From Micromonospora echinaurantiaca (GTDB lineage: Bacteria > Actinomycetota > Actinomycetes > Mycobacteriales > Micromonosporaceae), in the NCBI RefSeq assembly GCF_900090235.1, contig NZ_LT607750.1, forward strand, positions 1,996,501-2,060,500: 64,000 bases of DNA. The letters are read 5' to 3'. The notes under the pieces were generated by a model, which did no database searches, had not been told where the DNA came from, and saw nothing but the letters and a program-made list of their open reading frames with translations. The position numbers were made by a program, and so were the translations under genes. Below, one piece after another: positions 28,770-44,952 of this stretch; the first letter of the stretch is position 1; every line of letters starts with the position of its first letter.

Positions 28770-29398
28770 GCCGGCACCGCGGCGGCGGTGAGCACCAGCC
28801 CGTCGCCGATCCGGAACCGGCCGGTGATCCCGCGCAGGCAGTCGGGGGCCGGCACCAGCAGCTCCACGGTGAAGGTGCCGGCCGGGTCGAGCCGGACCAG
28901 GGCGTCGCGGAAGCCGAGCCAGCGCCCGGTGACCGGGTGCCAGACCTTGTAGACGCTCTCCTTGGCCGAGAAGAGGACCGTGTCGAGGGCCGCGCCCGGC
29001 GGCTGCCCGCGCAACCAGCGCCGCTCCGCCGGCAGCAGGACCCGCTCGGCGACCCGGGGCGGCAGCGGCCGGTGCGGCTCGGCGTCGACGCCCACGGCGA
29101 GCAGGTCGGCGCGGCGGGCCACGGCCGCGCCCCGGTAGCCGCGGCAGTGGGTGATGCTGCCGACGAAGCCGGCCGGCCAGCGGGGCGCGCGGTCGGCACC
29201 GCGCGGGATGGCCACCGGCGGCACGCCGAACCGGGCCAGCGCCCGCCGCGCGCAGGCCCGCCCGGTGAGGAACTCGCCGCGCCGGCCCGCGCCGGCCCGG
29301 GCCACCGCCTCGGCCTCCTCGGCCAGGGGCACGGCGGTCGGGTCGTCGTCGGGCCGCTCGGCGACCCGCACGGCGGCCGGCAGCAGCTCGCCCAGCAC
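28766..29398 (-). CDS. 4'-Phosphopantetheinyl transferase (EntD/Sfp type)
   Basis: 210 residues from a GTG at 29398, one base after the stop of the acyl-CoA dehydrogenase. P1b-like WPAGFVGSITHCRGYRGAAVA, magnesium site GVDAEPHRPLP and FSAKESVYKVWHP are all present, giving the EntD subclass. It converts apo carrier proteins to the holo form using CoA. The ACP at 2193 is the target in sight; upstream megasynthases outside the window may be others. Its location in the middle of an acyl-CoA operon ties that operon to the thiotemplate pathway. Confidence 0.93.
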   Translation of the reverse strand: MLGELLPAAVRVAERPDDDPTAVPLAEEAEAVARAGAGRRGEFLTGRACARRALARFGVPPVAIPRGADRAPRWPAGFVGSITHCRGYRGAAVARRADLLAVGVDAEPHRPLPPRVAERVLLPAERRWLRGQPPGAALDTVLFSAKESVYKVWHPVTGRWLGFRDALVRLDPAGTFTVELLVPAPDCLRGITGRFRIGDGLVLTAAAVPA

Positions 29399-29399
29399 G

Positions 29400-30446
29400 T
29401 CAGCTCCCGAGCAGCGCCCGGGCCAGGTCGGCCCGGTGCCGGGTCGACGGCGCGTCGAAGGCGCGAATCCAGAGCGCCCGCCGGTACCACCGGTGCACCG
29501 GGTGCTCCCAGGTCATCCCGATCCCGCCGAGCACCTGGATGGCGTGCTCGCAGCCGCGTACCGCCGCGTCGCGGGCGGCGACCACGGCGGCGGCGACCGC
29601 CTCGTCGACGGTCCCGTCCGGCCGCCCGTCGGCCCGCCCGGCCAGCCAGGCGGCCCGGTAGACCAGCGAATGCGCCAGCTCGACGGCCACGTAGCTGTCC
29701 GCGACGCGGAAGCTGACCCCCTGGAACGCCCCGATCGGCCGGCCGAACTGGGTACGGGTCCGGGCGTGCGCGACGGCCAGGTCGTACGCCCGGCGGGCCA
29801 CCCCCAGCGCCTCGGCCGCCAGCAGCGTGTACGCCCGCCGGCGCAGCCGGCGCAGCGCCACCGGGGTGCCGGCGACGTCGGCGACCGGCTCGGCCGGAGT
29901 GTCCGCGCAGCGCAGGTCCGCCGGGCGGCGCAGCCCGTCCAGCCCGGCGCGGTCGACCACGGTCACCCCGACCGCGTCCCGACGGACCCGGAACAGCGCC
30001 ACGCCCTCGGCGGTGCCGGCGGTGAGCAGCACCTCGGTGACCGCTGCCAGGTCGGGCACGAGCCGCTTCACCCCCGACACCCGCCAGCCGTCCGGGCCGG
30101 TGACCGCCCGTACCGCGCTGGTGCGGTGCGCGACGGCCAGCGTCGCGCAGTCGTCGTCGTGGCAGGCGACGGTGGCCGGCGCGGTGCCGGGCAGCGCCGC
30201 GCTCAGCGTGCTCCACCAGGGCACCGGGTGCAGCGCGTAGCCGGACTCGTCGGCCAGCACCGCCTGCTCCACCAGGCCGAGGTCGGGGTCCCGCCAGCCC
30301 AGGTCGATCAGCGGCGCCCAGCCGTCGGGGTCGTGCCCGGGGCCGTCGGCGAGCGCGGCCACCCGGTCCGGCGGGTAGCGCTCGGCGAGGTAGCCGCGGG
30401 TCACCTCCCGCAGGTGCCGCTGCTGCTCGGTGAAGCCGAACTCCAT
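29400..30446 (-). CDS. Acyl-CoA dehydrogenase (FadE-like, short form)
   Basis: 348 residues, start ATG 30446. The acyl-CoA dehydrogenase C-domain is good (ARTRTQFGRPIGAFQGVSFRVADSYVAVELA; QVLGGIGMTWEHPVHRWYRRAL), but the N-terminal and middle domains are short and the FAD-binding loop is degenerate. In mycobacteria such short FadE proteins form alpha2beta2 complexes with a full partner (as with FadE28/FadE29). The gene 12 bp upstream encodes a plausible partner. It probably desaturates a branched or cyclic acyl-CoA. Confidence 0.88.
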   Translation of the reverse strand: MEFGFTEQQRHLREVTRGYLAERYPPDRVAALADGPGHDPDGWAPLIDLGWRDPDLGLVEQAVLADESGYALHPVPWWSTLSAALPGTAPATVACHDDDCATLAVAHRTSAVRAVTGPDGWRVSGVKRLVPDLAAVTEVLLTAGTAEGVALFRVRRDAVGVTVVDRAGLDGLRRPADLRCADTPAEPVADVAGTPVALRRLRRRAYTLLAAEALGVARRAYDLAVAHARTRTQFGRPIGAFQGVSFRVADSYVAVELAHSLVYRAAWLAGRADGRPDGTVDEAVAAAVVAARDAAVRGCEHAIQVLGGIGMTWEHPVHRWYRRALWIRAFDAPSTRHRADLARALLGS

Positions 30447-30458
30447 CCCGCCCCCTCG

Positions 30459-31622
30459 TCAGCGCCAGCGCGGCAGCCCGGCGACCCGCTCGGCGATGAG
30501 CCCGCGCAGGATCTCCGAGGTGCCGCCCTCGATGGTGTTGCCCCGGCTGCGCAGCAGCTGCCCCTGCCAGTAGCCGGCCCAGTACGCGTCCGCGCCGTCC
30601 AGCGCCGCGCGCTCGCCGAGCAGCCGGACCGCCAGGTCGCAGACCCGCTGGTGGACGTGCGACCAGTGCAGCTTCAGCACCGCGCTCTCCGGACCCGGCT
30701 CACCGGTGCGCTGCAACCCGGTCAGCGCCCGGTAGCCGGTCCAGCGCAGGGCCTGCACCTCGACGTGCAGTTGGGCCACCTCGTCGCGGACCAGCGGGTC
30801 GTCGGCGTGGCCGGTGGCCCGCACGGTGGCCAGCAACCGGTCGAACTGGACGCTGAGCCGGGCGTTCAGGGTGATGCCGAAGGTGCCGCGTTCGTGGGCG
30901 AGCGTGGTCATCGCCACCGCCCACCCCGCGTCGACCTCGCCGACCACGCAGTCGTCGCCGACCCGCACCCCGGCCAGCAGGATCTGGCCGAACTCCGCGG
31001 CGCCGTTGATCTGCCGCAGCGGCCGTACCGTCACCCCGGTGGCCCGCATGTCGAGCAGGAAGCAGGTGAGGCCCCGGTGCCGCGGCCCGTCCGGCCCGGT
31101 GCGGGCCAGCAGCAGGCAGTGGTCGGCCAGTGGGGCGTACGAGGACCAGAGTTTCTCCCCGTCGACCACGAACCCGCCCGGCACCCGGCGCGCGGCGGTG
31201 CGCACGGCGGCCAGGTCGGAGCCCGCCTCCGGCTCGGAGAAGCCCTGACAGAACACGTCGTCGCCGGCGAGGATCGCGGCCAGGTGGCGCTCCTGCTGCG
31301 CCGGGGTGCCGTACCGGATCAGGGTCGGGCCCACCATGTTCAGGCCGATCACGTTGAGCTGTTCGGGGGCGCCGGCCAGGGCGCACTCCTCGGCGAAGAT
31401 GCCCTGGTGCACGGGGGAGAGGCCGCGACCGCCGTAGGCCACCGGCCAGGTGAGGCCGGCGTAGCCGGCGGCGTGCACCTGCTTGGTCCAGTCCCGCAGC
31501 GCGGCCGGGTCGCCGGGCGCACCGTCGGGCGCCGGCTCGGGTAGCCGTTCGCGCAGCCAGGCCCGCAGCCCGGCGCGGAACGCGGCCTGCTCGGTGCTGT
31601 CGTTCAGGTCCACGAGCGACAC
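30459..31622 (-). CDS. Acyl-CoA dehydrogenase (FadE-like, full partner)
   Basis: 387 residues from GTG 31622; GTG 31613 (VDLNDSTEQ) is also reasonable. FAD/substrate motif FCQGFSEPEAGSDLA, then VDGEKLWSS and the terminal GNTIEGGTSEILRGLIAERVAGLP, all typical of the FadE group whose Glu base is in EGGTSE-like positions. First gene of the six-gene operon down to 24354. It is divergent from the class II aldolase with 38 bp between starts, so regulatory elements must be compact or overlapping. Confidence 0.9.
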   Translation of the reverse strand: MSLVDLNDSTEQAAFRAGLRAWLRERLPEPAPDGAPGDPAALRDWTKQVHAAGYAGLTWPVAYGGRGLSPVHQGIFAEECALAGAPEQLNVIGLNMVGPTLIRYGTPAQQERHLAAILAGDDVFCQGFSEPEAGSDLAAVRTAARRVPGGFVVDGEKLWSSYAPLADHCLLLARTGPDGPRHRGLTCFLLDMRATGVTVRPLRQINGAAEFGQILLAGVRVGDDCVVGEVDAGWAVAMTTLAHERGTFGITLNARLSVQFDRLLATVRATGHADDPLVRDEVAQLHVEVQALRWTGYRALTGLQRTGEPGPESAVLKLHWSHVHQRVCDLAVRLLGERAALDGADAYWAGYWQGQLLRSRGNTIEGGTSEILRGLIAERVAGLPRWR

Positions 31623-31660
31623 CGTAGCCACGCGTCGTGGCACCGGCTACCGTGCGCGAC

Positions 31661-32407
31661 ATGAACGCTCCGCGCACCGAGCGGTCGCCCGAGGAGGAGC
31701 GGCAGCACCGCAAGCGGCAGCTCGCCGCGACCCTGCGGATCTTCGCCCGGCTCGGCTTCGACGAGGGCGCCGGCGGGCACGTCACCGCGCGCGACCCGAT
31801 CCGGCCCGACCACTTCTGGATCAACCGGTTCGGCCAGCACTTCGGTCACGTGCGGGTCAGCGACCTGCTCCTGGTCGACCACGCCGGCGCGGTGGTGGCG
31901 GGCACCGGCACCATCAACCCGGCCGGGTACGCCATCCACTCGCAGATCCACCTGGCCCGGCCGGACGTGGTGGCCGCGGCGCACACCCACTCCACGTACG
32001 GGCGGGCCTGGTCCACCCTCGGCCGGCCGCTGGACCCGATCACCCAGGACGCCTGCGCGTTCTACGAGGACCACGAGGTGCACGAGCACTACTCCGGGGT
32101 GGTGCTCGACCCGGCCGAGGGCAAGCGGATCGCCGGCACGCTCGGCGACCGCAAGGCGGTGATCCTGCGCAACCACGGCCTGCTCACCGTCGGCGGCAGC
32201 GTGGCCGAGGCGGCCTGGTGGTTCGTCTCGATGGACCGCTGCTGCCAGGTGCAGCTGCTGGCGGAGGCGGCCGGCCGGCCGGTGCTGGTCGACCCGGACG
32301 ACGCCCGGGCCACCCGGGACACCATCGGCACCCCCGCGTTGGGCCGGTTGAACTTCCGGCCGCTCTACGCCGACGTGGTCCGCGCCGAGCCGGACCTGCT
32401 GGACTGA
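31661..32407 (+). CDS. Class II aldolase/adducin-family protein
   Basis: 248 residues. GGHVTARDP, the zinc-ligand block AAHTHSTYGRAWS and RNHGLLTVGGSVAEAAWWF define the class II aldolase fold (fuculose-phosphate aldolase / decarboxylase). The N-terminal RLGFDEGAGGHVTARDPIRPDHFWIN closely follows the subgroup found in actinobacterial catabolic and cyclisation pathways. It would cleave or form a C-C bond at a beta-hydroxy carbonyl, with metal help. It is followed by an acyl-CoA synthetase after 2 bp. Confidence 0.87.
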   Translation: MNAPRTERSPEEERQHRKRQLAATLRIFARLGFDEGAGGHVTARDPIRPDHFWINRFGQHFGHVRVSDLLLVDHAGAVVAGTGTINPAGYAIHSQIHLARPDVVAAAHTHSTYGRAWSTLGRPLDPITQDACAFYEDHEVHEHYSGVVLDPAEGKRIAGTLGDRKAVILRNHGLLTVGGSVAEAAWWFVSMDRCCQVQLLAEAAGRPVLVDPDDARATRDTIGTPALGRLNFRPLYADVVRAEPDLLD

Positions 32408-32409
32408 CC

Positions 32410-34038
32410 GTGGCCCGACTCCTCGACGAGCTGGTGCGGGACCGGGCCGGCGAGCCGGCGCTGGCCGACCGGCACCGCCGGCTCGACTGGTGGGCGCTCA
32501 ACGACCGGGTGAACCGGTGGCTGCGGGTGCTGCGCGACCACGGCCTGTCGGTCGGGGACACCGTGGCGGTGGTGGTCGGCAACCGGGTCGAGGTGTTCGA
32601 GGCGTTGCTCGCCGGCCTGCACGGCGGCCTGCGGGTGGTCCCGGTGAACTGGCACCTCACCGCGCCGGAGCTGCGCCACATCCTGACCGACTCGGCCAGC
32701 CGCGCGGTGCTGGTGGACGCGTCCCGGGCCGCTGTCGTCGCCGCCGCGCTGCGGCCGGACGAGTGCCCGGTCCGGCTGCTGGTCGGCGCCGCCGAGCCGC
32801 CCGGCTCCGCGCCCGTCGAGGCGTCGCCCGGCTCCGCGCCCGTCGAGGAGTCGGCGGGCCACGGCGCGGCGACCGGGTTCACCCCCGTCGAGCCGTTGCT
32901 CGCCGCCGCCGACGGGGCGGAACCGCCGGGGCAGGTCTGCGGGTCGGTGATGCTCTACACGTCGGGCACCACCGGGGCGCCGAAGGGCGTGGTCAACGGG
33001 GTGTTCCGGCAGGGCGAGCCGCTCGCCGGGGTCGGCCGGCTGCTGGCGTACGCCGGACTGGTGCTGAAGGTGCCGGCCACCGGCCGGGCCCTGCTGGTCG
33101 GCCCGTGGTACCACTCCGCCCAGCTGTACTTCGCGCTGCTGCCCCTGCTGCGCGGCTGCGAGCTGCGCATCGAGGAACGGTTCGATCCGGAACGCACGCT
33201 GCGACTCATCGACGCCGAGTCGGTCAACCTATGCCACCTGGTGCCCACCCAGTTCGTCCGCCTGCTGCGGTTGCCGGAGCCGGTGCGCCGCCGCTTCGAC
33301 GGCGGCAGCCTGCGCCGGGTCTGGCACGGCGGCGGGCCGTGCGGGCCGGAGGTGAAGCGCCGCATGATCGAGTGGTGGGGCCCGGTGGTGGTGGAGTACT
33401 ACGCGGCCACCGAGGGCGGCGTGGTGACCCTCATCGAGGCCGAGGAGTGGCTGGCCCGGCCGGGCAGCGTCGGGCGGGCCGTGCCACCGACCCGGATCCT
33501 GGTGGTCGGGCCGGACGGCGCGGAACTGCCCCCGGGTCGGGTCGGCCGGGTCTTCTTCCGGCGTGGCGCGGCGCAGGATTTCCACTACCACGGCGACCCC
33601 GCCAAGACCCGCGAGGCGCACCTGGCGCCGGGCGTCTACACCTACGGCGAGCTGGGCTACCTCGACGGCGACGGCTACCTCTTCCTCACCGGACGGCACA
33701 GCCAGACGATCGTCTCCGGCGGGGTGAACGTCTACCCGGCCGAGGTGGAGGCGGCCCTGCTGGCCCACGAGGCGGTGCAGGACGTGGCAGTGCTGGGGGT
33801 GCCCGACGAGGAGTTCGGCGAGCGGGTGTGCGCCCTGGTGCAACTGACCGGGCAGGGGCTCGCCGCCGCCGACGCGCCGGCCACGCTGGACCGGCACTGC
33901 CGCACCCGGCTGGCCGGGTTCAAGGTGCCCCGGGTGTGGCGGGTGGTCGACCGGCTGCCCCGCGACGAGACCGGCAAGCTGCGCCTTGAGGCGCTGCGCT
34001 CGCTCGCGCCGCGCCCGCCGGCCGCCGCGCGCACCTAG
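32410..34038 (+). CDS. Acyl-CoA synthetase (ANL superfamily)
   Basis: 542 residues from GTG 32410, 2 bp after the aldolase stop. P-loop-like VMLYTSGTTGAPKGV, YYAATEGG, the hinge GRHSQTIVSGGVNVYPAEVE and catalytic Lys in DETGKLRLEAL are intact. It activates a carboxylic acid with ATP and CoA. A linker insertion near residues 130-148 contains an almost exact 9-residue duplication (PGSAPVEAS / PGSAPVEES), encoded by a 27-bp direct repeat at 32799-32848. Together with the aldolase it forms a two-gene unit. Confidence 0.9.
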   Translation: MARLLDELVRDRAGEPALADRHRRLDWWALNDRVNRWLRVLRDHGLSVGDTVAVVVGNRVEVFEALLAGLHGGLRVVPVNWHLTAPELRHILTDSASRAVLVDASRAAVVAAALRPDECPVRLLVGAAEPPGSAPVEASPGSAPVEESAGHGAATGFTPVEPLLAAADGAEPPGQVCGSVMLYTSGTTGAPKGVVNGVFRQGEPLAGVGRLLAYAGLVLKVPATGRALLVGPWYHSAQLYFALLPLLRGCELRIEERFDPERTLRLIDAESVNLCHLVPTQFVRLLRLPEPVRRRFDGGSLRRVWHGGGPCGPEVKRRMIEWWGPVVVEYYAATEGGVVTLIEAEEWLARPGSVGRAVPPTRILVVGPDGAELPPGRVGRVFFRRGAAQDFHYHGDPAKTREAHLAPGVYTYGELGYLDGDGYLFLTGRHSQTIVSGGVNVYPAEVEAALLAHEAVQDVAVLGVPDEEFGERVCALVQLTGQGLAAADAPATLDRHCRTRLAGFKVPRVWRVVDRLPRDETGKLRLEALRSLAPRPPAAART

Positions 34039-34064
34039 CCCCGGGTGTCGCCGGCGGCGCGCGC

Positions 34065-35459
34065 TCACCCGAGCCGGGTCTTCTGCACCTTCCCGAGGGC
34101 GTTGCGGGGCAGCGCGTCAACCAGGTGCACCCGGCGCGGTCGTTTGTGGACCGACAGCAGCCGGGCCACGAAGTCGATCAGCTCCGGCTCGGCCACCCCG
34201 TCGCCGACCACGTACGCGGTGACCTGCTGGCCCAGCACCGGGTCCGGGGTGCCCACCACCGCCGCCTCGCGTACCCCGGGGTGGGCCAGTAGCGCCTCCT
34301 CGACCTCCCCGGCGCCGATCCGGTAGCCGCCGCTCTTGATCAGGTCAGTCGACGCGCGCCCGACGATCCGGTGCCGACCGTCCGGGCCGATGGTGGCGAT
34401 GTCGCCGGTGCGGTACCAGCCGTCGCCGGTCCGGGTGGCGGCGTCCGCGTCCGGCCGGTTGAGGTAGCCGTCGAAGAGCGTCGGCCCCCGGACCAGCAAT
34501 TCGCCCATCGCCGAGCCGTCCGCGGGCAGCGGGTCGCCGTGCTCGTCGACCAGCCGGGTGCCGACCCCGGGCAGCGGCCAGCCCACCCAGCCGGCCTCGC
34601 GGGGGCCGTCCGCCCGGGCGCTCACCGTGATCAGGGTCTCGGTCATCCCGTACCGCTCGGCCACCCGGTGCCCGGTGAGCGCGCGCAGGCCGTCGAAGAC
34701 CGCCGCCGGCAGCGCCGCGCTGCCGGAGACCAGCAACCGGGCCCGGCGCAGGGCGCGGGCGGCGGCCGGGTCGGCGCAGATCCGGGACCAGACGGTCGGC
34801 ACCCCGAACAGCAGCGTCCCGCCGGCGGCGGCGTACCGCTCGGGGTGGGGGCGCCCGACGTGGTCCAGCCGGCTGCCGTGCCGCAGCGGTCCGAGCAGGC
34901 CCAGCACCAGTCCGTGTACGTGGAACAGCGGCAGCCCGTGCACCAGCAGGTCGTCCGGGGTCCAGGCCCAGGCGTCGGCGAGCCCGTCCAGGCAGGCGGC
35001 GATCGCCCGGCGGGAGAGCAGCACGCCCTTGGGTAGCCCGGTGGTGCCGCTGGTGTAGAGGATCAGCGCGGGCCGGTCCGGGGCGGGCACCGGGTGGCTG
35101 GTCGAGGAGCGCAGGTCCGGTGACACCGGGACCACCGGCAGGTCGCCGCCGACGTCGTGCCCGGTCGCGGCCAGCACCGCGGCCGCCGCGGAGTCCCGCA
35201 GGATGTGCTCGCGTTCCATCGGGCCGGCGTCGGGCGGCAGCGGCACCACGGTGACGTCGGCCAGCAGCGCGCCGACGATCCCCACCACGGTCTCCAGTGA
35301 CGGGGTGGCCAGCACGGCCACCCGATCCAGCCCCCGGACGCGGTCGGCGACCGCCGTGGCGCTGGCCAGCAGCCGCGCCCGGGAGATCGACCGCCCGGCC
35401 ACCCGGACCGCGTCCGGGCGGTCGTCCGCGGCCGTGGACAACGCCGTCAACAGGGTCAC
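34065..35459 (-). CDS. Acyl-CoA synthetase resembling malonyl-CoA synthetase (MatB)
   Basis: 464 residues from GTG 35459, 8 bp after gggagg. LILYTSGTTGLPKGVLLS, LFHVHGLVLGLLGPLRHG, GHRVAERYGMTETL and IVGRASTDLIKSGGYRIGAGEVEEALL follow MatB-type enzymes, which load malonate or methylmalonate to give extender units. The overall length also fits MatB (about 480-500). The acid preference is an inference; residues that select malonate were not checked. It converges on the previous synthetase and diverges from the giant gene. Confidence 0.85.
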   Translation of the reverse strand: MTLLTALSTAADDRPDAVRVAGRSISRARLLASATAVADRVRGLDRVAVLATPSLETVVGIVGALLADVTVVPLPPDAGPMEREHILRDSAAAAVLAATGHDVGGDLPVVPVSPDLRSSTSHPVPAPDRPALILYTSGTTGLPKGVLLSRRAIAACLDGLADAWAWTPDDLLVHGLPLFHVHGLVLGLLGPLRHGSRLDHVGRPHPERYAAAGGTLLFGVPTVWSRICADPAAARALRRARLLVSGSAALPAAVFDGLRALTGHRVAERYGMTETLITVSARADGPREAGWVGWPLPGVGTRLVDEHGDPLPADGSAMGELLVRGPTLFDGYLNRPDADAATRTGDGWYRTGDIATIGPDGRHRIVGRASTDLIKSGGYRIGAGEVEEALLAHPGVREAAVVGTPDPVLGQQVTAYVVGDGVAEPELIDFVARLLSVHKRPRRVHLVDALPRNALGKVQKTRLG

Positions 35460-35829
35460 GTCGTGGACCTCCCAGACGCGGCGGGCGGTCGCCGGGGCGG
35501 CGGACCGGAGCCCCCGGTGGCGCGGGCCCGGCCCGACCGTAGCCACCACCGGACCGGGCGCACCACCCCGCCCGGGCCGCCGCCGGGCGTGGTCGTTCCC
35601 GGTCACGGCGAGCCGGCGGCGCCGGATCGACCGAGGGCCGGACGCCGAGCGTCCAGTCTGTAGGGTCTGTGGTGCGGCCCCGCGCCGCGGCCGGCTCCGC
35701 GCCGGTCTGCGAGGCGGCCTACTGTCGGGATTCTGCCTGTGCGAGCCCGCCGGTCAGCAGCACAGTGGAGGGACGGCGCATCGGCGGGCGTGGCGCCGAC
35801 GGCTGCCGCGCATCCTACCGGGCCTGGGG
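35460..35829. other. Divergent intergenic region before the giant gene
   Basis: About 370 bp without a supportable gene. TAGGGT at 35661-35666 could be a -10 box, but no good -35 is placed. No ATG, GTG or TTG in frame with the giant gene was found between here and 35830. Confidence 0.4.
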
Positions 35830-38800
35830 GTGAGCTTGAGCATCACGGAGGAGGAGCCGCCCCGGACGGATGTCGCGGCGCAGGCGCTCGTCGCCGTCGT
35901 CGACGCCGACGCGCACGACGCGCTGGCCGCTGTCCCGGGGTCGATCCTGCGCGACGCCGCGGTGGCGGCGGCCCTGCTGGTGCGCGAGGCCGCGCTGCTC
36001 GCCTCCATCGTCACCCCCGACGACCGGCGTCGCGACGAGGCCGGGTCGCGGGCCGTACGGCTGCTCGGCCGGCTCTGCGACGCGGCGTACGCGGGCGAGG
36101 ACCACCAGCTCAGCCAGCTGCTCGACTGGTTCGCCAGGGCGTGGCTGGGCCGCCCGTTCAACGGTGCCATCTACGGCGACCGGCACCTGCCCGAGGCAGT
36201 GCACGCCCCGCTCGCCGCACTGACCGAGCAGGCCGGCGAGGCGCCGGTGATGATCTGCGCGGCCGCACACCGGGAACTGGAACGGGTGCTGGCCGAGCTG
36301 GAGCGGGACGCGTCCCGGCTCAGCGCGATCGACCGGGAGGTGACCGGCCCGCTCTTCGTCCGGCCGGTGCGCGAGGTGATCGAGGCGGCCCGGGCCGGGC
36401 AGCCGCACGACGCCGGCCTGCTCGCCGAGCGGCCGGAGGACCTGGTGGCCGCCGTCAACCGGACGCTGCGCGAGCCGATCCCGACGAACGGCCGGCGCTG
36501 GCCACTGCTGGTACGGGCGACCGAACAGATCCAGGACCACGTACGGCGGTCGATCGAACTGGGGCGGCTCGCGCAGGGCGCCGTCGCGCCGCCCGCCGTG
36601 CCCGGTGACACCCTGCCCGCCCCGCTGGACGAACTCGTGGCCGTCGCGCTCACCGCGGCCGAGCCGCCGCCGGTCGGCGAGCGCCTCCCGGAGACGCTGG
36701 CCCGGGCCGCGCTGGCGCACGCCGGTACGCCCGAGCTGGGTTGCCGGGTGGCCGGCGTGCTGGAGGGCCTGGACATCGCGACGGCCGAGGTGGAGGAGGC
36801 CCTGTCCCCGTTGCAGGACCTGCACGAGCGGGTCCTCGAATACGCCGCCCGCTGTCCCGACGACGCCGAAGTGGAGGAGGTCGCCGCGCTGATCGGCGCG
36901 GGCATCGCCGACTGCGACCTCGGGTACGCCCGCGACGGCCTCGACCTGCTCGCCGTGACGGTGCGCGGCGCGGAGCTGCGGCGGCGGCTGACCCGGACCG
37001 GCAACCGGATCGAGGCCATGCCCCCGGACCTGGCCGGCGGCGCCGGCCCGCACCTGCGGGCCGCCCGGATCGCCGTCGCCGAGCAGCGGTTCGAGGACGC
37101 CGAGTTCCACCTGACCGAGATCGACGGGCTGACCGGTCCGCGGCCGCGGACCGGCCCGACCCCGCGTCCGCCGGCGGCGCCGGCGACCCCCTCGCTGGCG
37201 GACTTCAAGCGCCGCCGCGACGGGTCCGACGTCCCCACCCTGTCGGCGATCGAGCAGGCCGTCGCCGACGGCGACCGCGACGAACTGCTCGCGCTGGCCC
37301 GCCGCCTCGGTCGGCCCGACACCGTCGAGCTGGTCGACGCGATGATCGACCGGTTCGCCACCGACGGTGAGGTGGCCGAGGCGCTGCTCTCCGGCCTGCC
37401 GCCCCGGCAGCGGCCCGCGGTGCTGCACCGGCTGGCCGAGGTGCGCCGCGCCCGTGGCGACGAGGCCGGCGCCGAGGAGGCGGCGCGGCGCAGCCGGCCC
37501 CCGGTCCCACCGGCCGAGCTGACCGTGGCGTCCCCGCTGCCGGCCGCCGACCTGCTGGTGCCGCGGATCAACTCGTCGACCGGCGCCGACGACGCCCGTC
37601 CGTCCGCGACCGAGCTGGCCGACGCGCTGGCCGACGAGACCCGCGCCGGCTCCGCCATCTCCCTCGGCTGGGCGGTCGGCCAGTACGTCTTCGCCGGTGA
37701 CCCGCTGCGCGGCCTGGAGCTGTACCGCGAGTGCGCGGAGCGCTTCTACGGCAACGCGACGTTGGCGTGGAACCTGGGCTGCGCGTACGCCGCGGTGGGC
37801 TGCCGGGACGAGGCGGTCGGCGCGCTGCGGTACTTCCTCGACATCATGGCGGACCGGGTCCCGGCGGAGCAGCGCGCGGCCCTCACCGAGTTCCTCCGCC
37901 ACAACGGCGTGCCGGCGCCGGAACCGACACCGCCCCCGGTGCCGGTGGCCCTGCCGCAGCACGTCATGCAGGCGCAGGAGAAGGCCGCGAAGGCCCTCTA
38001 CGAGCAGGGCCAGGCCGAGGCGGCGCTGCGCCGGATCCGGCGCCTGCTGCGGCTGGCCCCGCACTCGCCCGGCGCCTTCCTGCTGCTGCGGATCTGCCGG
38101 GAGCAGCGCTGGCTGGACCAGGCCCGCGAGGCGGTCGCGGAGATCGCGGCGGCCGGGGCCGCGAACTGGCGTCACCACTACGAGCTGGCGCGGATCGCGG
38201 TGGAGGTCGACGCCGCCGACCTCGCGGAGGAGCACCTGCGGACGGCCGCCGACCTCGGCGCGTCGATGGACGAGCTGTACCGGTTGCGGCAGCGGATCGG
38301 CGCCGGCGGGCCGGTGGCCGGGGCGCGGCTGGACGGCGCGGCGGAGCCGGCGACCGGCGCCTCGGCGCTGCCCCCGCTTCCGCAGCCCCGCGACCTCGTC
38401 CGCGAGGTGCGCGCCGCCATCGCCGACCCATACGACCCGTCGCACCTGGTGGGACTCGCGCGCCAGGCGCTCATGGTGATGCCCTCGGCCGCCACGGTGA
38501 TCGTCGACGAGGTACTGGCCGCGCCGCACGCCGACGAGCTCGTCGGCGAGCTGGTGCGGTTCCTGCCGGCCGAGGGCCAGCTCACCGCCGTGCTGGTGCT
38601 GGCCCCCGAGCTGGGCCGCGCCGGCCGCACCCGGGACGCGATCGACCTGCTGCGGGGCGTGGAGACCGTGGCCCGGCCGACGGAGCTGCCCCGGGTGTGG
38701 TTGACCCTGCAACGGCTGATGCGGGACGCGGGCATCGACCCGGACGGCGAGCCGGGCGGCTGGCTCCGGTTGCCCGCCACGCCCGGACCGCCCCGATCGG

Positions 38801-41800
38801 ACGGTCCCGCGCTCGCCCCGCCACCGTGGATCACCGAGATCGCCGTCACGTCGGGCACCCCGCCCGCCGTCCACCGGGCCCATCAGGTGCAGCTCGAGCA
38901 GGGTCCGGCGGCCGCGGCGCAGCTGTGGCGGGACGCCGTCGCCGCCGGCTTCGGGCTGGCGCTGCCCAACGCCCTCGGCACGCTGGTGCTCACCGGCCGG
39001 GCGGCCGAGGCCGTGGCGCTCTACCGGCAGACCTCCGACCGCCTCTACCTGGTGGCCAGCGCGGCCTGGAACCTCGGCTGCGCCTTCGCGTACCTCGGTG
39101 ACCTGGAATCGGCCGGCGCCGCCTTCGAGTACCACACCCGGGTCACCTCCCGGACGTACCTGCCCGAGCAGCGGGCCGCGCTGGAGCGGCTCTTCGCCGA
39201 GTTGGGCCGCCCGCTGCCGATGCCGGTCGCCCACCCCGGGTGGCGTCCCGTCCCGTCGCCCCGGTCGGCGCCGGCGGGCGGCGTGTCGGCTGCCCGCGCC
39301 GTCGAGGCGTTCCGGCGCGCCCCGGACGCGCACCGGTTCATCGTCGCCAGCTCCGCCCTGCGCGCCGAGATGGCCGATGCCCCGCCGGACCGTCGGCGGC
39401 TGCTGCTGGCCCAGATCGAGGAGATGTTCGCGGAGCTGCCGTCGCCGACGGCCCACCCGTACGCCGAACACATCCGTGCCCTGGCGCTCGCCGGAGAGGA
39501 CCAGCGGGCGTGGACGATGGTGCTGGACTGCCTCGACCGGTTCGACCTCGCCGCGGAGCTGCTCGCGCCGGCCCTGGCGCTGGCCACCGGCCGGGCCCGG
39601 GTGACCCAGCTCGAGGAGATCCTGACCCGGCAGGCGGACGGCGGGGACTACACCCGCTACCTCACCCTGGCCAAGCTCGCCCGCAAGCGGGGCGACGGCC
39701 CGGCCCGCCGGCGGTACGCCGAGGCCGCGCTGCTGCACAACCCCTCCTCGGCGGAGGCGCGCAAACTGTTGGGCAGGGGCGCCCCGCCGGCCGAGAACAG
39801 GCCGATCTGGGAACGCCGGTCCGCCCTCGAGGACCTGGTCCGGTCGATGACCACCCGAGAACCCGTCGAGGTGCTCAAGCAACTGCCGGACTACTCGGCC
39901 GAGATCAAGCGGCTGGAGAGCCGGGCGGTCGACGTGCTCACCCCGTACCCTCCGTGCGACGAGTTCCTGGACATCGAGGACGAGGCCCGACCCGCGGTGG
40001 ACGCCGGGATCCGGGCCGCGCGCCACGAGGACTGGCCGCTCGCCGCGACCGAGTTCGGCGCGGCGCTGCAGCTCCAGCCGCGGCATCTCGGCGTGGCCCG
40101 GAACACCGCTGGCGCGTTCATCCGCCTCGGGCGGCTGTCGGACGCCCGGGCCATCGCCGAGTCGATCTCCTACAGCCACCACGGCAGGCTGCTGCTCGCG
40201 CAGCTCGCGTACGCCGAGAAGGACCTGGACCGGGCCGCCGACCACCTGGCCGAGCTCTCCGTGGCCGGCGTTCCGGAGGCGAACGCGTACGCGTTCGGCC
40301 TGGCCGGCCTGCGCCTGCACCTGCAGAACCGGCCCCGGGAGGCCGCCGAGGCGCTGCTGCGCCGCGCCGAGGACGCCCTGCCCGGCCGCCCCGAGTTCTC
40401 CACCGCGATGGCCGCGGTGATCGCCGACAGCCACGGTCACGACGATCTCGTGCGGCGGGCCGTCGGCCTGCTGTTCACGCCGCGCCTGACCAGCCGACAG
40501 GCGGTCGACTGGGCGATCGAGCGGCAACGGTTGGAGGCGCTCGGCGCGCCGCACGCGCCCGAGCTGCGCCCCGCCGACCTGGAACGGTTGGTGGACCACT
40601 TCGCCGGCCAGGATCCGGTCCGGCTGCGGAACTTCCTCGACCGGCTGGCGGACCGGCTGCCCGCCGCCCGCAACCGCGAGGTGCGGCTGCTCCGCGCGCG
40701 GGTCGCCGAGGAGTGCGGCCTCATCGAGGACGCGTTCGCGGCCCGGTTCGGTCTGCTCGACCCGAACGCCCGGGACCGGCGGGCCATGCTCGACGACCTC
40801 ACCGCGTTCTGCGAACGCACCCTCTACCTGGAGGGGCTGGACCGGGTGCTCGAGGTCAAGCGGGAGTGGCAGCTGCTCACGCCGGTGGACAGCGACCGGG
40901 CGGAGGCGCAACGCAGCAGCATCGAGTACCGCAGGTCGGTCTACCGCGAGAAGATCAACGCCACCCTGTGGGAGATCCAGCGGATCAGGACCGACGACGA
41001 CATCGCCCGGGTCGAGCCGCCCCTGGCCGCGCTGACCGACCGGCTGCTCGGCTTCACCGAGGGCACCGGCGTCGCCCAGGCGGTCCACCGGCTCGCCGGG
41101 TTGTGGCGGCGCTGCGTGGAGCTGCTGCCCCAGGTCGGTGGCCCGGTCACCGACGTCGGGCTGCGCAGCGAGCTGCTGACCGTGCTGCGGCAGATCCGCT
41201 CGCTGCAGACCGGCCTCGGCTCCCCGGTGGTCGAGGAGGCGGCGGCCACCGTCGGCAAGTGGCTGTACGGGCGGTGGGAGCAGATCGCCCGCGACCAGCG
41301 CAGCTCCACCGGGGCGATCGAGGTGAACGTGCTCGCCGCCACCCGGATCGTCGGCGGGCCGGTGGAGGCGGTCGTCGAGTTCACCGCGCACGTCGAGGTC
41401 CGGGAGCTGCGGGTGCGGCTCGGCGGCCAGACCACCAACCTCGGGCGGATGGACGCCGAGGAGCAGCGGACCGAGGGGTTCTGCGCGGACGTCGCCGCGG
41501 ACGACGTGAGCCTGACGGTGACCTTCCAGACCGCCGACGGCCTGCGCGACGAGATCGTCCGGCAGCTCGCCCTCGAGGTGGGCGACCAGCACGAGCATCC
41601 GGTCCGGTCGCTGTTCACCCCGAACGTCACCGCGACCGGGGACATGTTCTTCGGCCGCAACGCCGAGCTGGAGAAGCTGCGCCTGGAGTACGGCGAGGCG
41701 CACACCCGCAACGCCACCATCCGCAGCCTGACCGGGCCGCGGAAGGTCGGCAAGACCTCCCTGCTGCAGTGGCTGGAGACGGACGGCCCGCCGGAGAGCT

Positions 41801-44043
41801 GGAAGATCCCGTACGTGCTGCCGATCTACCTGGACGTCAGCTCGTTCCCGTCGGGTGCGCACCCGCTGGGCCGCATCGGCCGGGCCATCGCCTCGGCCGC
41901 CGAGGCGCTCGCCGCGCAGGGCCGGTTCACCGACCCGGTCCCGCCGCCGCCGGCCGAGCCGGACGACGCGCAGGCGTTCATCCGCTGGTGCCGGCGGCTG
42001 CGGGCCGCCTGCGCCGAGCGGCTCGGATTCCTCGTCATTCTCGACGAGGTGCAGGAACTGCTGAAGGACCTGCACGCCCGGCAGGAGCTGGGTCCGGTGG
42101 CCGCCAGCCTGCGGACGATCGCCAACAGCGGAGCCGTCGCCCTGCTGCTCTGCGGTTCGTGCACCGGCGCCACGCTCAAGGCGCTGCTCGCCGGTACCGC
42201 GCTGCAGGACGAGTTGCAGACCGAGACGCTCGGCTACCTCGACCGCCGGGCGACCGAGCAGGTCTTCGAGGAGGGCTTCGCCGGGACGGCCCGCATCCTG
42301 CCGGAGGCCAGGGCCGAGGTGTGGCGGCTGACCGAGGGCCACCCGAACCACATCCACCACATCGGCAAGGACGTCGCCCTGCGGCTCACCACCGATCGCC
42401 GACGGCTGGTCACCCGGAGCCTGGTCGGCGAGGTCGGGCTCGCCATGGCGAAGACGTCGGCCGCCACCATCGGCATCGTCAAGCTGGACACCGAGGGGCC
42501 GGACGGTCGTGACCTGCTCGTCCAACTCGCCAACCGGGCGCAGGGGGCCATCGACCTCGGCGAGACGGCCGAGCTGAAGCGCGAACTCGACGCGCGGCAC
42601 ATGGACCAGATCGATCGCTACCTGCTGATCGGCCTGCTGCGGGTGGACCGCGAGCAGTACCGGTGGGCGAACGAGATCATCAACCTGCACGTCCAGCACT
42701 TCGCGGAACGGCAGTTCTCCCAGTTGCGGTTCACCATCGAGGAGAGCCACCTGCACGCGAGCCAGTACGAGACCCAGCGGACGTACTCGCTGGGGCCGTG
42801 CCGTACCCGGCTGGTGATGCGGGAGGGGCAGCTGTTCACCGCGAAGCGGGTGACCCACACGACCGACACCGGCGGGCGGTCGCGGGCCGACTCGTCGGCG
42901 CTGACCGGCGACGAGACCGCCAAGCTGGTCGACGAGTTCCTGACCTACCTGTCCCGCACGCCGCTGACCGGGGTGCCCCGGTACGTCGGCCGGGAGGGGG
43001 ACTGGTTCCTCTTCGACCACGCCGAGGGCCGCTCGCTGGCGGAGATCGCCCGGATGCAGCGCGACGTGCCGACCGAGCCGTACAAGCTGGTCCGGTGGAT
43101 CGCGGCCGCGTGCGACGTGGTGGAGCGGGTGTTCCGGCTGCGTGGGATCACCCATGGCAACATCAAGCCGGGCAACGTGATCGTGGACGACACCACGGTC
43201 AGCGTCGTCGACTGGGGTCGCGGCACCCAGGACGGGTCGGCCAACCCGATCAGCGGCGGCACCCCCGGCTACCTGAGCCCGGGCTATCTGCGCCGGCTGG
43301 ACCAGGACGAGGGCGGCGCGCTGCCGACCGACGACGTCTTCGCCCTGGGCGTCGTGCTGTACCAGATGCTCGACCCGAACGGCGAGCTGCCCTACGGCAC
43401 CGAACTCGCCGACCTCGACACCGCCGGCCGGCCGGCCGGCGCCCGGCCGTTGCCGGTGGAGTTGCCGCTGATGGCCTGCCTGACCCGGGCCATCGCGCTG
43501 CGCGACGAGGACCGCTACGTGACGGCCGGCGACTTCGCCCGGGACCTGCGGTTGGCGGTGCCGGAGGCGGCACCGGAACGGCCGGCCGAGTTTCCACCCG
43601 CGCCCGCGCCACCCCGCACGGCGGGCCAGAGCCTGATCATCCACAGAGTCGAGGAGATGAACGTGACGAAGGACGGGATCAGCATCGAGGGCAGCTCGGT
43701 CACGGGTTCGGTGGTGGGAAACCGGAACCGGATCGGGACCTTCGCGGTCAACGCCGGGGTGGAGACCTCGGAGCTGACGGCCCGGATCGCGCAGCTCGAG
43801 TCCGCCGTCGAGGCGCTGCGCGCCGAGCTGCCCGCGGGGGTCGCCGACGGCGTGGCCCGGGACCTGGCGGCGTTCACCGGCGAGGCGACCGCGGAGGCGC
43901 CGCGCCCGGACCGGCTCCAGCGCATCGGCGCGGACATCGTGGACGCCGCGGAGACGGTGCCGGCGTCCACCCCGCTCTTCCAGCGGGTCGGGTTGCCCGT
44001 GATCACCCTGGTCAACGAGATCATCAACATGATCGCCGGCTGA
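35830..44043 (+). CDS. Giant helical-repeat / STAND-like NTPase / pseudokinase protein
   Basis: About 2,737 residues. GTG 35830 or, with a better ribosome site (GGGGGTGA), TTG 35836. Order: residues 1-1820 mostly helical repeats with TPR texture (two copies of an AAWNLGCA...LPEQRAALE module near 611-700 and 1035-1131); about 1830-1920 a beta-sandwich; then FFGRNAEL, Walker A GPRKVGKTS (1969-1977) and Walker B LVILDE (2068-2073) with a TEGHPNHIHHIG block as in STAND/MNS NTPases; 2317-2590 a Ser/Thr-kinase-like domain; finally a beta-like repeat and coiled coil. The kinase has HGNIKPGN (2442-2449) where HRDxKxxN is expected, so the catalytic Asp is Asn, although DWG (2461) and FTAKRV remain. 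Likely a regulatory or conflict-type switch, not a metabolic enzyme. Confidence 0.88.
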   Translation: MSLSITEEEPPRTDVAAQALVAVVDADAHDALAAVPGSILRDAAVAAALLVREAALLASIVTPDDRRRDEAGSRAVRLLGRLCDAAYAGEDHQLSQLLDWFARAWLGRPFNGAIYGDRHLPEAVHAPLAALTEQAGEAPVMICAAAHRELERVLAELERDASRLSAIDREVTGPLFVRPVREVIEAARAGQPHDAGLLAERPEDLVAAVNRTLREPIPTNGRRWPLLVRATEQIQDHVRRSIELGRLAQGAVAPPAVPGDTLPAPLDELVAVALTAAEPPPVGERLPETLARAALAHAGTPELGCRVAGVLEGLDIATAEVEEALSPLQDLHERVLEYAARCPDDAEVEEVAALIGAGIADCDLGYARDGLDLLAVTVRGAELRRRLTRTGNRIEAMPPDLAGGAGPHLRAARIAVAEQRFEDAEFHLTEIDGLTGPRPRTGPTPRPPAAPATPSLADFKRRRDGSDVPTLSAIEQAVADGDRDELLALARRLGRPDTVELVDAMIDRFATDGEVAEALLSGLPPRQRPAVLHRLAEVRRARGDEAGAEEAARRSRPPVPPAELTVASPLPAADLLVPRINSSTGADDARPSATELADALADETRAGSAISLGWAVGQYVFAGDPLRGLELYRECAERFYGNATLAWNLGCAYAAVGCRDEAVGALRYFLDIMADRVPAEQRAALTEFLRHNGVPAPEPTPPPVPVALPQHVMQAQEKAAKALYEQGQAEAALRRIRRLLRLAPHSPGAFLLLRICREQRWLDQAREAVAEIAAAGAANWRHHYELARIAVEVDAADLAEEHLRTAADLGASMDELYRLRQRIGAGGPVAGARLDGAAEPATGASALPPLPQPRDLVREVRAAIADPYDPSHLVGLARQALMVMPSAATVIVDEVLAAPHADELVGELVRFLPAEGQLTAVLVLAPELGRAGRTRDAIDLLRGVETVARPTELPRVWLTLQRLMRDAGIDPDGEPGGWLRLPATPGPPRSDGPALAPPPWITEIAVTSGTPPAVHRAHQVQLEQGPAAAAQLWRDAVAAGFGLALPNALGTLVLTGRAAEAVALYRQTSDRLYLVASAAWNLGCAFAYLGDLESAGAAFEYHTRVTSRTYLPEQRAALERLFAELGRPLPMPVAHPGWRPVPSPRSAPAGGVSAARAVEAFRRAPDAHRFIVASSALRAEMADAPPDRRRLLLAQIEEMFAELPSPTAHPYAEHIRALALAGEDQRAWTMVLDCLDRFDLAAELLAPALALATGRARVTQLEEILTRQADGGDYTRYLTLAKLARKRGDGPARRRYAEAALLHNPSSAEARKLLGRGAPPAENRPIWERRSALEDLVRSMTTREPVEVLKQLPDYSAEIKRLESRAVDVLTPYPPCDEFLDIEDEARPAVDAGIRAARHEDWPLAATEFGAALQLQPRHLGVARNTAGAFIRLGRLSDARAIAESISYSHHGRLLLAQLAYAEKDLDRAADHLAELSVAGVPEANAYAFGLAGLRLHLQNRPREAAEALLRRAEDALPGRPEFSTAMAAVIADSHGHDDLVRRAVGLLFTPRLTSRQAVDWAIERQRLEALGAPHAPELRPADLERLVDHFAGQDPVRLRNFLDRLADRLPAARNREVRLLRARVAEECGLIEDAFAARFGLLDPNARDRRAMLDDLTAFCERTLYLEGLDRVLEVKREWQLLTPVDSDRAEAQRSSIEYRRSVYREKINATLWEIQRIRTDDDIARVEPPLAALTDRLLGFTEGTGVAQAVHRLAGLWRRCVELLPQVGGPVTDVGLRSELLTVLRQIRSLQTGLGSPVVEEAAATVGKWLYGRWEQIARDQRSSTGAIEVNVLAATRIVGGPVEAVVEFTAHVEVRELRVRLGGQTTNLGRMDAEEQRTEGFCADVAADDVSLTVTFQTADGLRDEIVRQLALEVGDQHEHPVRSLFTPNVTATGDMFFGRNAELEKLRLEYGEAHTRNATIRSLTGPRKVGKTSLLQWLETDGPPESWKIPYVLPIYLDVSSFPSGAHPLGRIGRAIASAAEALAAQGRFTDPVPPPPAEPDDAQAFIRWCRRLRAACAERLGFLVILDEVQELLKDLHARQELGPVAASLRTIANSGAVALLLCGSCTGATLKALLAGTALQDELQTETLGYLDRRATEQVFEEGFAGTARILPEARAEVWRLTEGHPNHIHHIGKDVALRLTTDRRRLVTRSLVGEVGLAMAKTSAATIGIVKLDTEGPDGRDLLVQLANRAQGAIDLGETAELKRELDARHMDQIDRYLLIGLLRVDREQYRWANEIINLHVQHFAERQFSQLRFTIEESHLHASQYETQRTYSLGPCRTRLVMREGQLFTAKRVTHTTDTGGRSRADSSALTGDETAKLVDEFLTYLSRTPLTGVPRYVGREGDWFLFDHAEGRSLAEIARMQRDVPTEPYKLVRWIAAACDVVERVFRLRGITHGNIKPGNVIVDDTTVSVVDWGRGTQDGSANPISGGTPGYLSPGYLRRLDQDEGGALPTDDVFALGVVLYQMLDPNGELPYGTELADLDTAGRPAGARPLPVELPLMACLTRAIALRDEDRYVTAGDFARDLRLAVPEAAPERPAEFPPAPAPPRTAGQSLIIHRVEEMNVTKDGISIEGSSVTGSVVGNRNRIGTFAVNAGVETSELTARIAQLESAVEALRAELPAGVADGVARDLAAFTGEATAEAPRPDRLQRIGADIVDAAETVPASTPLFQRVGLPVITLVNEIINMIAG

Positions 44044-44082: not shown

Positions 44083-44952
44083 CTACCGGGAGACGTGCTG
44101 CGTCTCGGCGAACTCGTCGTCGCCCTCGTTCCAGCGCATGACCACGGCGAACGCGCGGCCGTCCCCGAGCGCGCCCATCAGTGGCCAGGAGAACTCGCTG
44201 CGCGGGATGATGTCCGGGGTTTCGTCGCCGTACAGCCGGGGCGGGGTGCCCTGGCCGGCGAGGCTCTCGACGCTGACCCGCACCCGGTGCGCCGCCGCCT
44301 CCCCGGCGTTCGTGACGACCAGCCGTTCCCGCCGGGTCCGGTACCGCACCGCACCGCGGTCGTCCCGGTACTGCTCCCGCTCGCTGTCGTACCGCGCGCG
44401 CAGCACGGCGCGTTCCCGGCCGCTCGGGCGGCGGGGCACGGCGCCGAGGCCGAGCAGGTCCAGATCGCCCTCGATCGCCTGCCGCACCTGGTGCCCGAGG
44501 TCCTCCGGGCTGGCGTACGTGCCGAGCAGCCCCAGTTTGGACAGTTGCTCCTGGAACGACCGCAGCGCATGCACCTGCTCCAGGTCCGCGTCGCGCGGGA
44601 TGGGTTCGGTGGAGAAGTAGACGTGCACCGGTTTGCCCGCGGCGTGCGACCGTTCGATCTCCTCGGCGGTGCCGGACACCGCCGCCGCCGTCGCCATGCC
44701 GAGCCGCGAGTCGAACAGGGCGATCACGATGTCGGCGCGGTCGACGAGCTGGTCGTTGATGACGCTCTGCGCGCTGCCGCCGAGCCGGGGCACCGCGTTG
44801 GTCTCCCACCGCCGGGGGAGCAGCACCACCTGTTCCCGCTCGGCCCGGGCGGCGTTCCAGCCGTGCAGGGCCTCGGTCACCGCGTCGCGTTCCGCCGTGG
44901 TGTCTCCCGGCGAGGCGATCAGCACCCGCAACACGTGCGCACTGAAGGGCAT
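44083..44952 (-). CDS. DUF4062-like (TIR-related fold) protein with C-terminal beta domain
   Basis: 289 residues from ATG 44952 (a TTG three codons earlier exists). VLRVLIASPGDTTAERDAVTEAL is the characteristic first strand and helix of DUF4062-type domains, followed by DIVIALFDSRLGMA and GTAEEIERSHAAGKPVHVYFS, the second and third strands. This fold belongs to the TIR/SLOG-like nucleotide-binding group often found as effector or sensor in conflict systems. From about residue 200 a beta-sandwich (RLVVTNAGEAAAHRVRVSVES) follows. It converges on the giant gene with 39 bp between stops. A functional tie to that protein is inference from neighbourhood. Confidence 0.8.
   Translation of the reverse strand: MPFSAHVLRVLIASPGDTTAERDAVTEALHGWNAARAEREQVVLLPRRWETNAVPRLGGSAQSVINDQLVDRADIVIALFDSRLGMATAAAVSGTAEEIERSHAAGKPVHVYFSTEPIPRDADLEQVHALRSFQEQLSKLGLLGTYASPEDLGHQVRQAIEGDLDLLGLGAVPRRPSGRERAVLRARYDSEREQYRDDRGAVRYRTRRERLVVTNAGEAAAHRVRVSVESLAGQGTPPRLYGDETPDIIPRSEFSWPLMGALGDGRAFAVVMRWNEGDDEFAETQHVSR

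Follow-up and report, generated by a model that had tools for sequence, protein, structure and literature searches.

We examined a 64,000-nucleotide window of the single-contig, 7.2-Mb genome of Micromonospora echinaurantiaca (contig NZ_LT607750.1, positions 1,996,501–2,060,500) and find a gene for a giant protein of 2,737 residues, in which an intact P-loop NTPase is joined in one chain to a protein kinase fold that has Asn where the catalytic Asp is expected. We read this protein as a STAND-like nucleoside triphosphate (NTP) switch with an integrated pseudokinase that would most likely serve as an accessory intracellular immune regulator, a functional reading to which we give slightly better than even chances. 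An immune output is plausible from the architecture, the patchy occurrence and a neighboring gene. The parts of the giant gene are the following.

35830..44043, forward strand: giant gene, 2,737 aa; an alternative start at TTG 35836 would give 2,735 aa.
35830..41199, forward strand: helical repeat region, residues 1–1790, a long-helix N-terminal part followed by TPR-like helix pairs (residues 3–1190 modeled, 1191–1785 inferred).
41317..41565, forward strand: seven-stranded β-sandwich preceding the NTPase, residues 1830–1912 (structure model).
41641..42474, forward strand: NTPase domain, residues 1938–2215 (AAA_22 and AAA_16 matches, structure model and family motifs).
41734..41760, forward strand: Walker A motif GPRKVGKTS, residues 1969–1977 (kept in 15/15 family members, as GKSS in P0012).
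42028..42054, forward strand: Walker B motif FLVILDEVQ, residues 2067–2075 (Asp, Glu and Gln invariant in 14 aligned rows).
42499..42666, forward strand: winged-helix-like segment, residues 2224–2279 (structure model).
42742..43572, forward strand: kinase-fold domain, residues 2305–2581 (Pkinase profile and structure model).
43153..43176, forward strand: degenerate catalytic loop HGNIKPGN, residues 2442–2449, with N2444 where the catalytic Asp is expected.
43210..43218, forward strand: DWG, the DFG equivalent, residues 2461–2463 (kinase alignment).
43576..43767, forward strand: disordered linker with the Gly/Asn-rich stretch SVVGNRNRIG, residues 2627–2636 (predicted local distance difference test, pLDDT, under 50).
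43771..44037, forward strand: four-helix C-terminal tail (structure model; a similar tail occurs only in P0003, P0004, P0005 and P0016).

Three protein searches, each limited to scoring about 8,000 candidates with the best word sharing and therefore setting a lower bound on family size, returned 14 relatives besides the protein itself. Five of these have an organism name: two from Micromonospora and one each from Blastococcus litoris, Aeromicrobium sp. Root236 and A. fastidiosum. The proteins of Micromonospora sp. C28SCA-DRY-2 (P0003, 92% identical) and Micromonospora sp. LZ34 (P0004, 87%) are of near-equal length and have an identical domain order. The relatives are 1,153 to 2,788 residues long, and the shortest of them (P0015) may be truncated, its contig being 4,244 bases long. 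All 15 proteins retain the NTPase motifs, and the 14-row alignment shows an invariant Lys in the P-loop, an invariant Asp-Glu pair in Walker B and an invariant GxPN motif, in agreement with the intact NTPase proposed in the initial annotation.

For the kinase-fold domain, that annotation had pointed to an HGN motif at Asn2444 and suggested either a pseudokinase sensor or a kinase using altered chemistry. The motif is present as described, and the pseudokinase suggestion gains support from the family, in which 14 of 15 kinase domains have Asn at the catalytic Asp position and only P0006 has Asp. The domain thus lacks a catalytic residue, as a pseudokinase does. The VAIK-type Lys (K2339) is kept in five proteins and replaced by Arg in ten, and the catalytic-loop Lys is also kept in five and gone from those same ten, whereas the loop His-Gly, a paired Asp at 2501–2502 and a late Arg are kept in 15/15. 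The Micromonospora/P0016 branch retains K2339, K2446, N2449 and D2461 with only the catalytic Asp replaced, and a nine-member Blastococcus/Aeromicrobium branch together with P0005 reads HGN and has neither the VAIK-type nor the loop Lys. The NTPase and kinase trees agree in their backbone (Micromonospora, P0016, P0005, P0006, then the nine-member Blastococcus/Aeromicrobium clade, within which the two trees branch differently); being unrooted, they are compatible both with a single Asp-to-Asn change and with regain of Asp in P0006. The ordinary kinases of related genomes look different, as 21/21 loops in 19 loci, fetched as kinase matches with a loop pattern that also permitted HGN, read HRD followed by DFG. 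HGN is therefore not the background of these genomes.

The domain is also under constraint. We estimated the ratio of nonsynonymous to synonymous substitution rates (dN/dS) by the Nei–Gojobori method for one pair, the M. echinaurantiaca gene and its 92% relative, over 2,732 codons, and obtained 0.246 for the whole protein, 0.086 for the NTPase and 0.154 for the kinase part (residues 2321–2580). Residues 2201–2320 give a value of 0, with zero amino-acid changes between the two Micromonospora species, and the tail (residues 2600–2737) is the fastest-changing part at 0.555. The purifying selection on the kinase part indicates that this domain is maintained despite the absence of a residue that an ordinary kinase needs, and the evidence supports a molecular switch with a large helical scaffold or sensor, a strongly constrained NTPase and a kinase fold retained for shape and not for ordinary phosphotransfer. 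The frame itself is genuine, given its coding-type GC content by codon position (0.77/0.53/0.96 for the whole frame from 35203), the 92%-identical homologue with the same frame and the whole-protein dN/dS. It is open from 35203 to 44043 on the forward strand, with no internal stops in the 35830–44043 translation. GTG 35830, the start chosen in the initial annotation, gives 2,737 residues; P0003 starts two codons downstream, at the equivalent of TTG 35836, which by this comparison may be the true start of a 2,735-residue protein. An antisense open frame of 2,609 aa (window 35815–43644, reverse strand) crosses the giant gene and is taken for a shadow of high GC content, not a gene.

The overall architecture, which had been read from the translation, is matched by Pfam and by structure models. 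Both Pkinase (E = 8.6e-9) and AAA_22 (E = 5e-7) score above the Pfam cut-off, whereas AAA_16 (E = 5.3e-6) and weak TPR matches in the helical region fall below it. The model of residues 3–1190 contains helices and zero strands (mean pLDDT 79.8, predicted template modeling score, pTM, 0.41), and its best matches in the Protein Data Bank (PDB) are helical-repeat proteins at low TM-score. In the model of residues 1786–2737 (mean pLDDT 79.9, pTM 0.53), the β-sandwich, NTPase, winged-helix-like segment, kinase, disordered linker and four tail helices follow one another. Kinases filled all listed matches in two structure searches with this C-terminal model, which bear on the kinase fold only; with both this fold and the Pkinase profile present, the domain belongs to the kinase superfamily. 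STAND proteins are defined by a winged-helix segment after the NTPase and by a GxP motif. The giant protein has intact Walker A and B motifs, helices plus a β-hairpin at residues 2224–2279 in the model and a GxPN-H motif invariant in 14 rows, with no sequence match to a solved STAND structure. Matches to VMAP-M8 (E = 0.089), DUF5955 (E = 0.013) and TCAD9 (E = 0.11) were judged to be chance.

These features suggest how the protein might work. The helical solenoid of about 1,800 residues would survey the cell for a ligand or restrain the NTPase. Ligand binding would then promote nucleotide exchange or hydrolysis and assembly, as the intact Walker motifs and the winged-helix-like segment suggest, and the kinase-fold domain, unable to act as a normal kinase, would serve as an allosteric or docking module that reports or transmits the state of the NTPase. 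In the Micromonospora branch, where K2339 and D2461 are kept, bound ATP may set the shape of this module. More speculatively, and in this branch only, the flexible Gly/Asn-rich linker and the four-helix tail could recruit or seed a downstream partner. We take SVVGNRNRIG to resemble amyloid-type signaling motifs of the BASS3/RHIM type, and the stretch is possibly such a motif. The tail has no second copy in the M. echinaurantiaca genome at E 0.01. A search with the tail across 51 genomes found the giant gene itself and three weak matches (E about 0.003) that look unrelated, two in polyketide-synthase frames (L061, L063) and one among housekeeping-type genes (L062).

The giant gene is rare and patchily distributed. 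Among 354 genomes of the bacterial family, two have a full-length relative (its own and G309); in a sample of 397 genomes from the order, one has it besides its own (G1038, whose locus holds the Blastococcus protein). In the phylum and class samples, which overlap, 3/396 and 3/394 genomes passed E 1e-10, each time its own and two weak matches to the NTPase part. The family search gave, as its third match, a 1,409-aa frame (G105, L025) that has β-sandwich-like and NTPase parts; the 866 residues read contain no kinase. Residues 1891–2737 matched 48 genomes among 61 relatives, and among the matches listed all but its own cover the kinase part only; residues 1842–2737 have no match in the plasmid collection. 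In a Streptomyces-like genome, a 1,985-aa protein (L068, 347–6304) directly follows, by eye, a MoxR-type ATPase gene and appears to combine a helicase-like and a trypsin-like part with an NTPase part that is distantly similar to the one in the giant protein.

Within the window, the giant gene has an AMP-ligase gene on one side and a convergent DUF4062 gene on the other, and siderophore-type genes are close by. One flank carries a GNAT acetyltransferase, a penicillin-amidase family gene, FecCD and a periplasmic binding protein; the other carries the AMP-ligase/acyl-CoA dehydrogenase group. This latter group (window 28766–35606) comprises a 4′-phosphopantetheinyl transferase, two acyl-CoA dehydrogenase-type genes, a class II aldolase-type gene and the AMP-ligase, and resembles a small biosynthetic cluster. 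The flanking GNAT gene was matched in 51 of 61 genomes of the genus, and we examined the 30 best places, one per genome. Neither the giant gene nor the DUF4062 gene lies within 1.5 kb of GNAT in 29/29 other Micromonospora loci. GNAT stands beside a penicillin-amidase gene, as in the window, in 22 of the 29 (the other seven may be different contexts), and the gene next to it varies among the loci with usable gene calls. From this absence and this variable next gene, the giant and DUF4062 genes look like accessory genes at this site.

Among the flanking genes scanned, the convergent neighbor is the one with a defense-type match.

44083..44952, reverse strand: DUF4062 TIR-like domain plus a C-terminal part (PADLOC, Pfam, alignment).

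Residues 10–163 of its 292-aa frame match PADLOC PDC-S60 (E = 5.9e-27); the Pfam DUF4062 score is 20.2 bits, under the 24.7 cut-off. A GTxEE stretch reads GT[AV][ED]E in 8/8 aligned rows of its family. A 2026 preprint (PMC13174449) describes DUF4062 proteins as TIR-like NADases acting as antiphage executioners with a catalytic Glu. The comparison with the Swarozyc NADase of that source, which also has a portal-binding auxiliary domain, covers two elements that the neighbor shares, the DUF4062 domain and a Glu in the GTxEE stretch. Plasmids of Curtobacterium, Amycolatopsis, Streptomyces and Janibacter carry homologues that cover 98–99% of the query, and a Rhodococcus plasmid carries one with 77% coverage. 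The homologues at these five plasmid loci, examined out of 188 matching records, are 32–53% identical, and no relative of P0001 or P0007 lies near them in any of the five. No match was found in the phage collection. Two of the 61 Micromonospora genomes searched have the DUF4062 gene, its own included, and a 76% copy (residues 3–177) sits in another Micromonospora genome (L067) that has no match to the NTPase profile; by eye, an IS110-type transposase fragment and a polyketide synthase lie near this copy. We consider the neighbor, from its sequence relatives, to be probably an independent mobile defense gene that shares the site and encodes a putative antiphage NADase. A dedicated pair with the giant gene is unlikely, since none of the five plasmid loci examined, each with a DUF4062 homologue, has the giant gene.

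Several observations weigh against an immune switch with a pseudokinase. A PDB profile search with the NTPase alignment gave a best E of 0.44 and no support for STAND, and neither NACHT nor NB-ARC of Pfam matches the giant protein at E up to 1; STAND membership is suggested by motifs and a predicted fold. No effector domain was recognized, and the PADLOC matches of the giant protein are limited to its kinase part. As for the kinase, the DFG Asp is kept in 11/15 proteins and lost in four, and although none of the 14 relatives has the normal HRD that would have spoken against a pseudokinase family, P0006 (HGD with Lys and DWD) looks intact. Several ordinary kinases of the relatives read HRDVT, so that loss of the loop Lys is by itself weak evidence. 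The defense role proposed in the initial annotation finds a counterpart in the TIR-like type of the DUF4062 neighbor, but the other flanks, in 10 open reading frames (ORFs) scanned, are siderophore-type and metabolic, and eight flanking ORFs have no PADLOC match at E 1e-4. DUF4062 is also adjacent in Micromonospora sp. C28SCA-DRY-2. The Blastococcus homologue lies beside suf-like genes (by eye), and the 19.5 kb inspected there show no DUF4062 gene. A small gene at that locus (L059, 10223–10795) is convergent with the Blastococcus giant gene and overlaps its end; by eye, its N-terminal segment is hydrophobic and its C-terminal part is vaguely like that of the DUF4062 neighbor.

Such settings leave room for a regulator of ordinary physiology, for example of siderophore production, stress or development, in which an NTP-dependent solenoid scaffold with a pseudokinase has no immune task. 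We consider this fairly unlikely: the siderophore-type genes, the AMP-ligase/acyl-CoA dehydrogenase group and the suf-like genes speak for it, but the giant gene is missing from all 29 other GNAT loci, 22 of them with the same penicillin-amidase neighbor, its distribution is patchy, and the two contexts seen share no obvious common pathway. A different account makes the kinase-fold domain an enzyme with altered chemistry (Asn phosphotransfer, AMPylation or similar) and the effector of the system. The retention of everything but the catalytic Asp in the Micromonospora/P0016 branch, the intact look of P0006 and the frequent DFG Asp are consistent with it, and in that branch the suggestion of the initial annotation stands as a possibility. 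As a common function of the family it is unlikely, since both Lys residues are gone from the nine-member Blastococcus/Aeromicrobium branch and from P0005 and the common role seems not to need them; we regard this account as decidedly improbable.

Still less probable, in our view, is a two-gene system with the giant protein as sensor and the convergent DUF4062 NADase as killer. Only 39 bp separate the two stop codons, the second Micromonospora locus keeps the arrangement, and the preprint (PMC13174449) reports NADase activity for DUF4062 proteins. The genes are nevertheless convergent and form no operon, and with 93% identity between the two Micromonospora loci across this region, their adjacency counts once. 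The plasmid loci, the 76% copy in L067 and the Blastococcus locus, each with one partner seen alone, also argue against it.

An STAND-like switch with a built-in pseudokinase, the interpretation that we prefer, has partial precedents. Like STAND NTPases and bacterial NLR-like proteins, the giant protein has a P-loop NTPase with intact Walker motifs, a following winged-helix-like segment and a large superhelical region; it differs in its N-terminal placement of the helical region, in the β-sandwich before the NTPase and in the kinase fold after it. According to Kaur et al. 2020 (PMC7159879), most kinase domains of the conflict systems described there have disrupted catalytic residues. The MoxR-vWA ternary systems with inactive S/T kinase domains from that study resemble the giant protein in being actinobacterial and modular and in the altered catalytic residues of their kinases, and the distant NTPase relative in L068 adjoins what by eye is a MoxR-type gene. 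The NTPase motifs of the giant protein are intact, however, unlike those of iSTAND as described there, and membership fails because neither the 10 flanking ORFs nor the DUF4062 neighbor has a MoxR or vWA Pfam match. PknB-type Ser/Thr kinases (PDB 5u94), whose fold the domain resembles, differ in that the giant protein has Asn for the catalytic Asp and carries its kinase behind an NTPase in a 2.7k-residue chain. Asp-to-Asn kinase domains act as regulators in JAK JH2, where HGN replaces HRD (PMC6287396), and in ZED1, an N173 pseudokinase that gates the plant NLR ZAR1 (PMC6634424). We treat these and the kinases of Kaur et al. as analogies of working, with no claim of descent. The domain order of the giant protein appears in no title or abstract among the literature results listed.

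By analogy, the giant protein could be a one-chain bacterial NLR-like receptor whose built-in pseudokinase is a decoy or guard, the counterpart of ZAR1–ZED1, a proposal that we hold to be unlikely. Foreign proteins able to bind host Ser/Thr kinases or to modify them, or phage kinases, would perturb the kinase-fold bait and so trip the NTP switch. Both cases would pair an NTP-switch receptor with a pseudokinase whose catalytic loop carries Asn for Asp, but ZAR1 and ZED1 are two separate plant proteins, and we claim homology for the kinase fold only. What is new here is a family in which an intact switch is joined to a kinase domain that is losing its catalytic parts, yet is conserved between close species. 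Its graded series, from HGD with Lys (P0006) through HGN with Lys (Micromonospora, P0016) to HGN without Lys (P0005, Blastococcus/Aeromicrobium), offers a means to probe the role of a pseudokinase inside a bacterial immune-type receptor, and the family bears on whether the plant NLR–pseudokinase pattern arose independently in bacteria.
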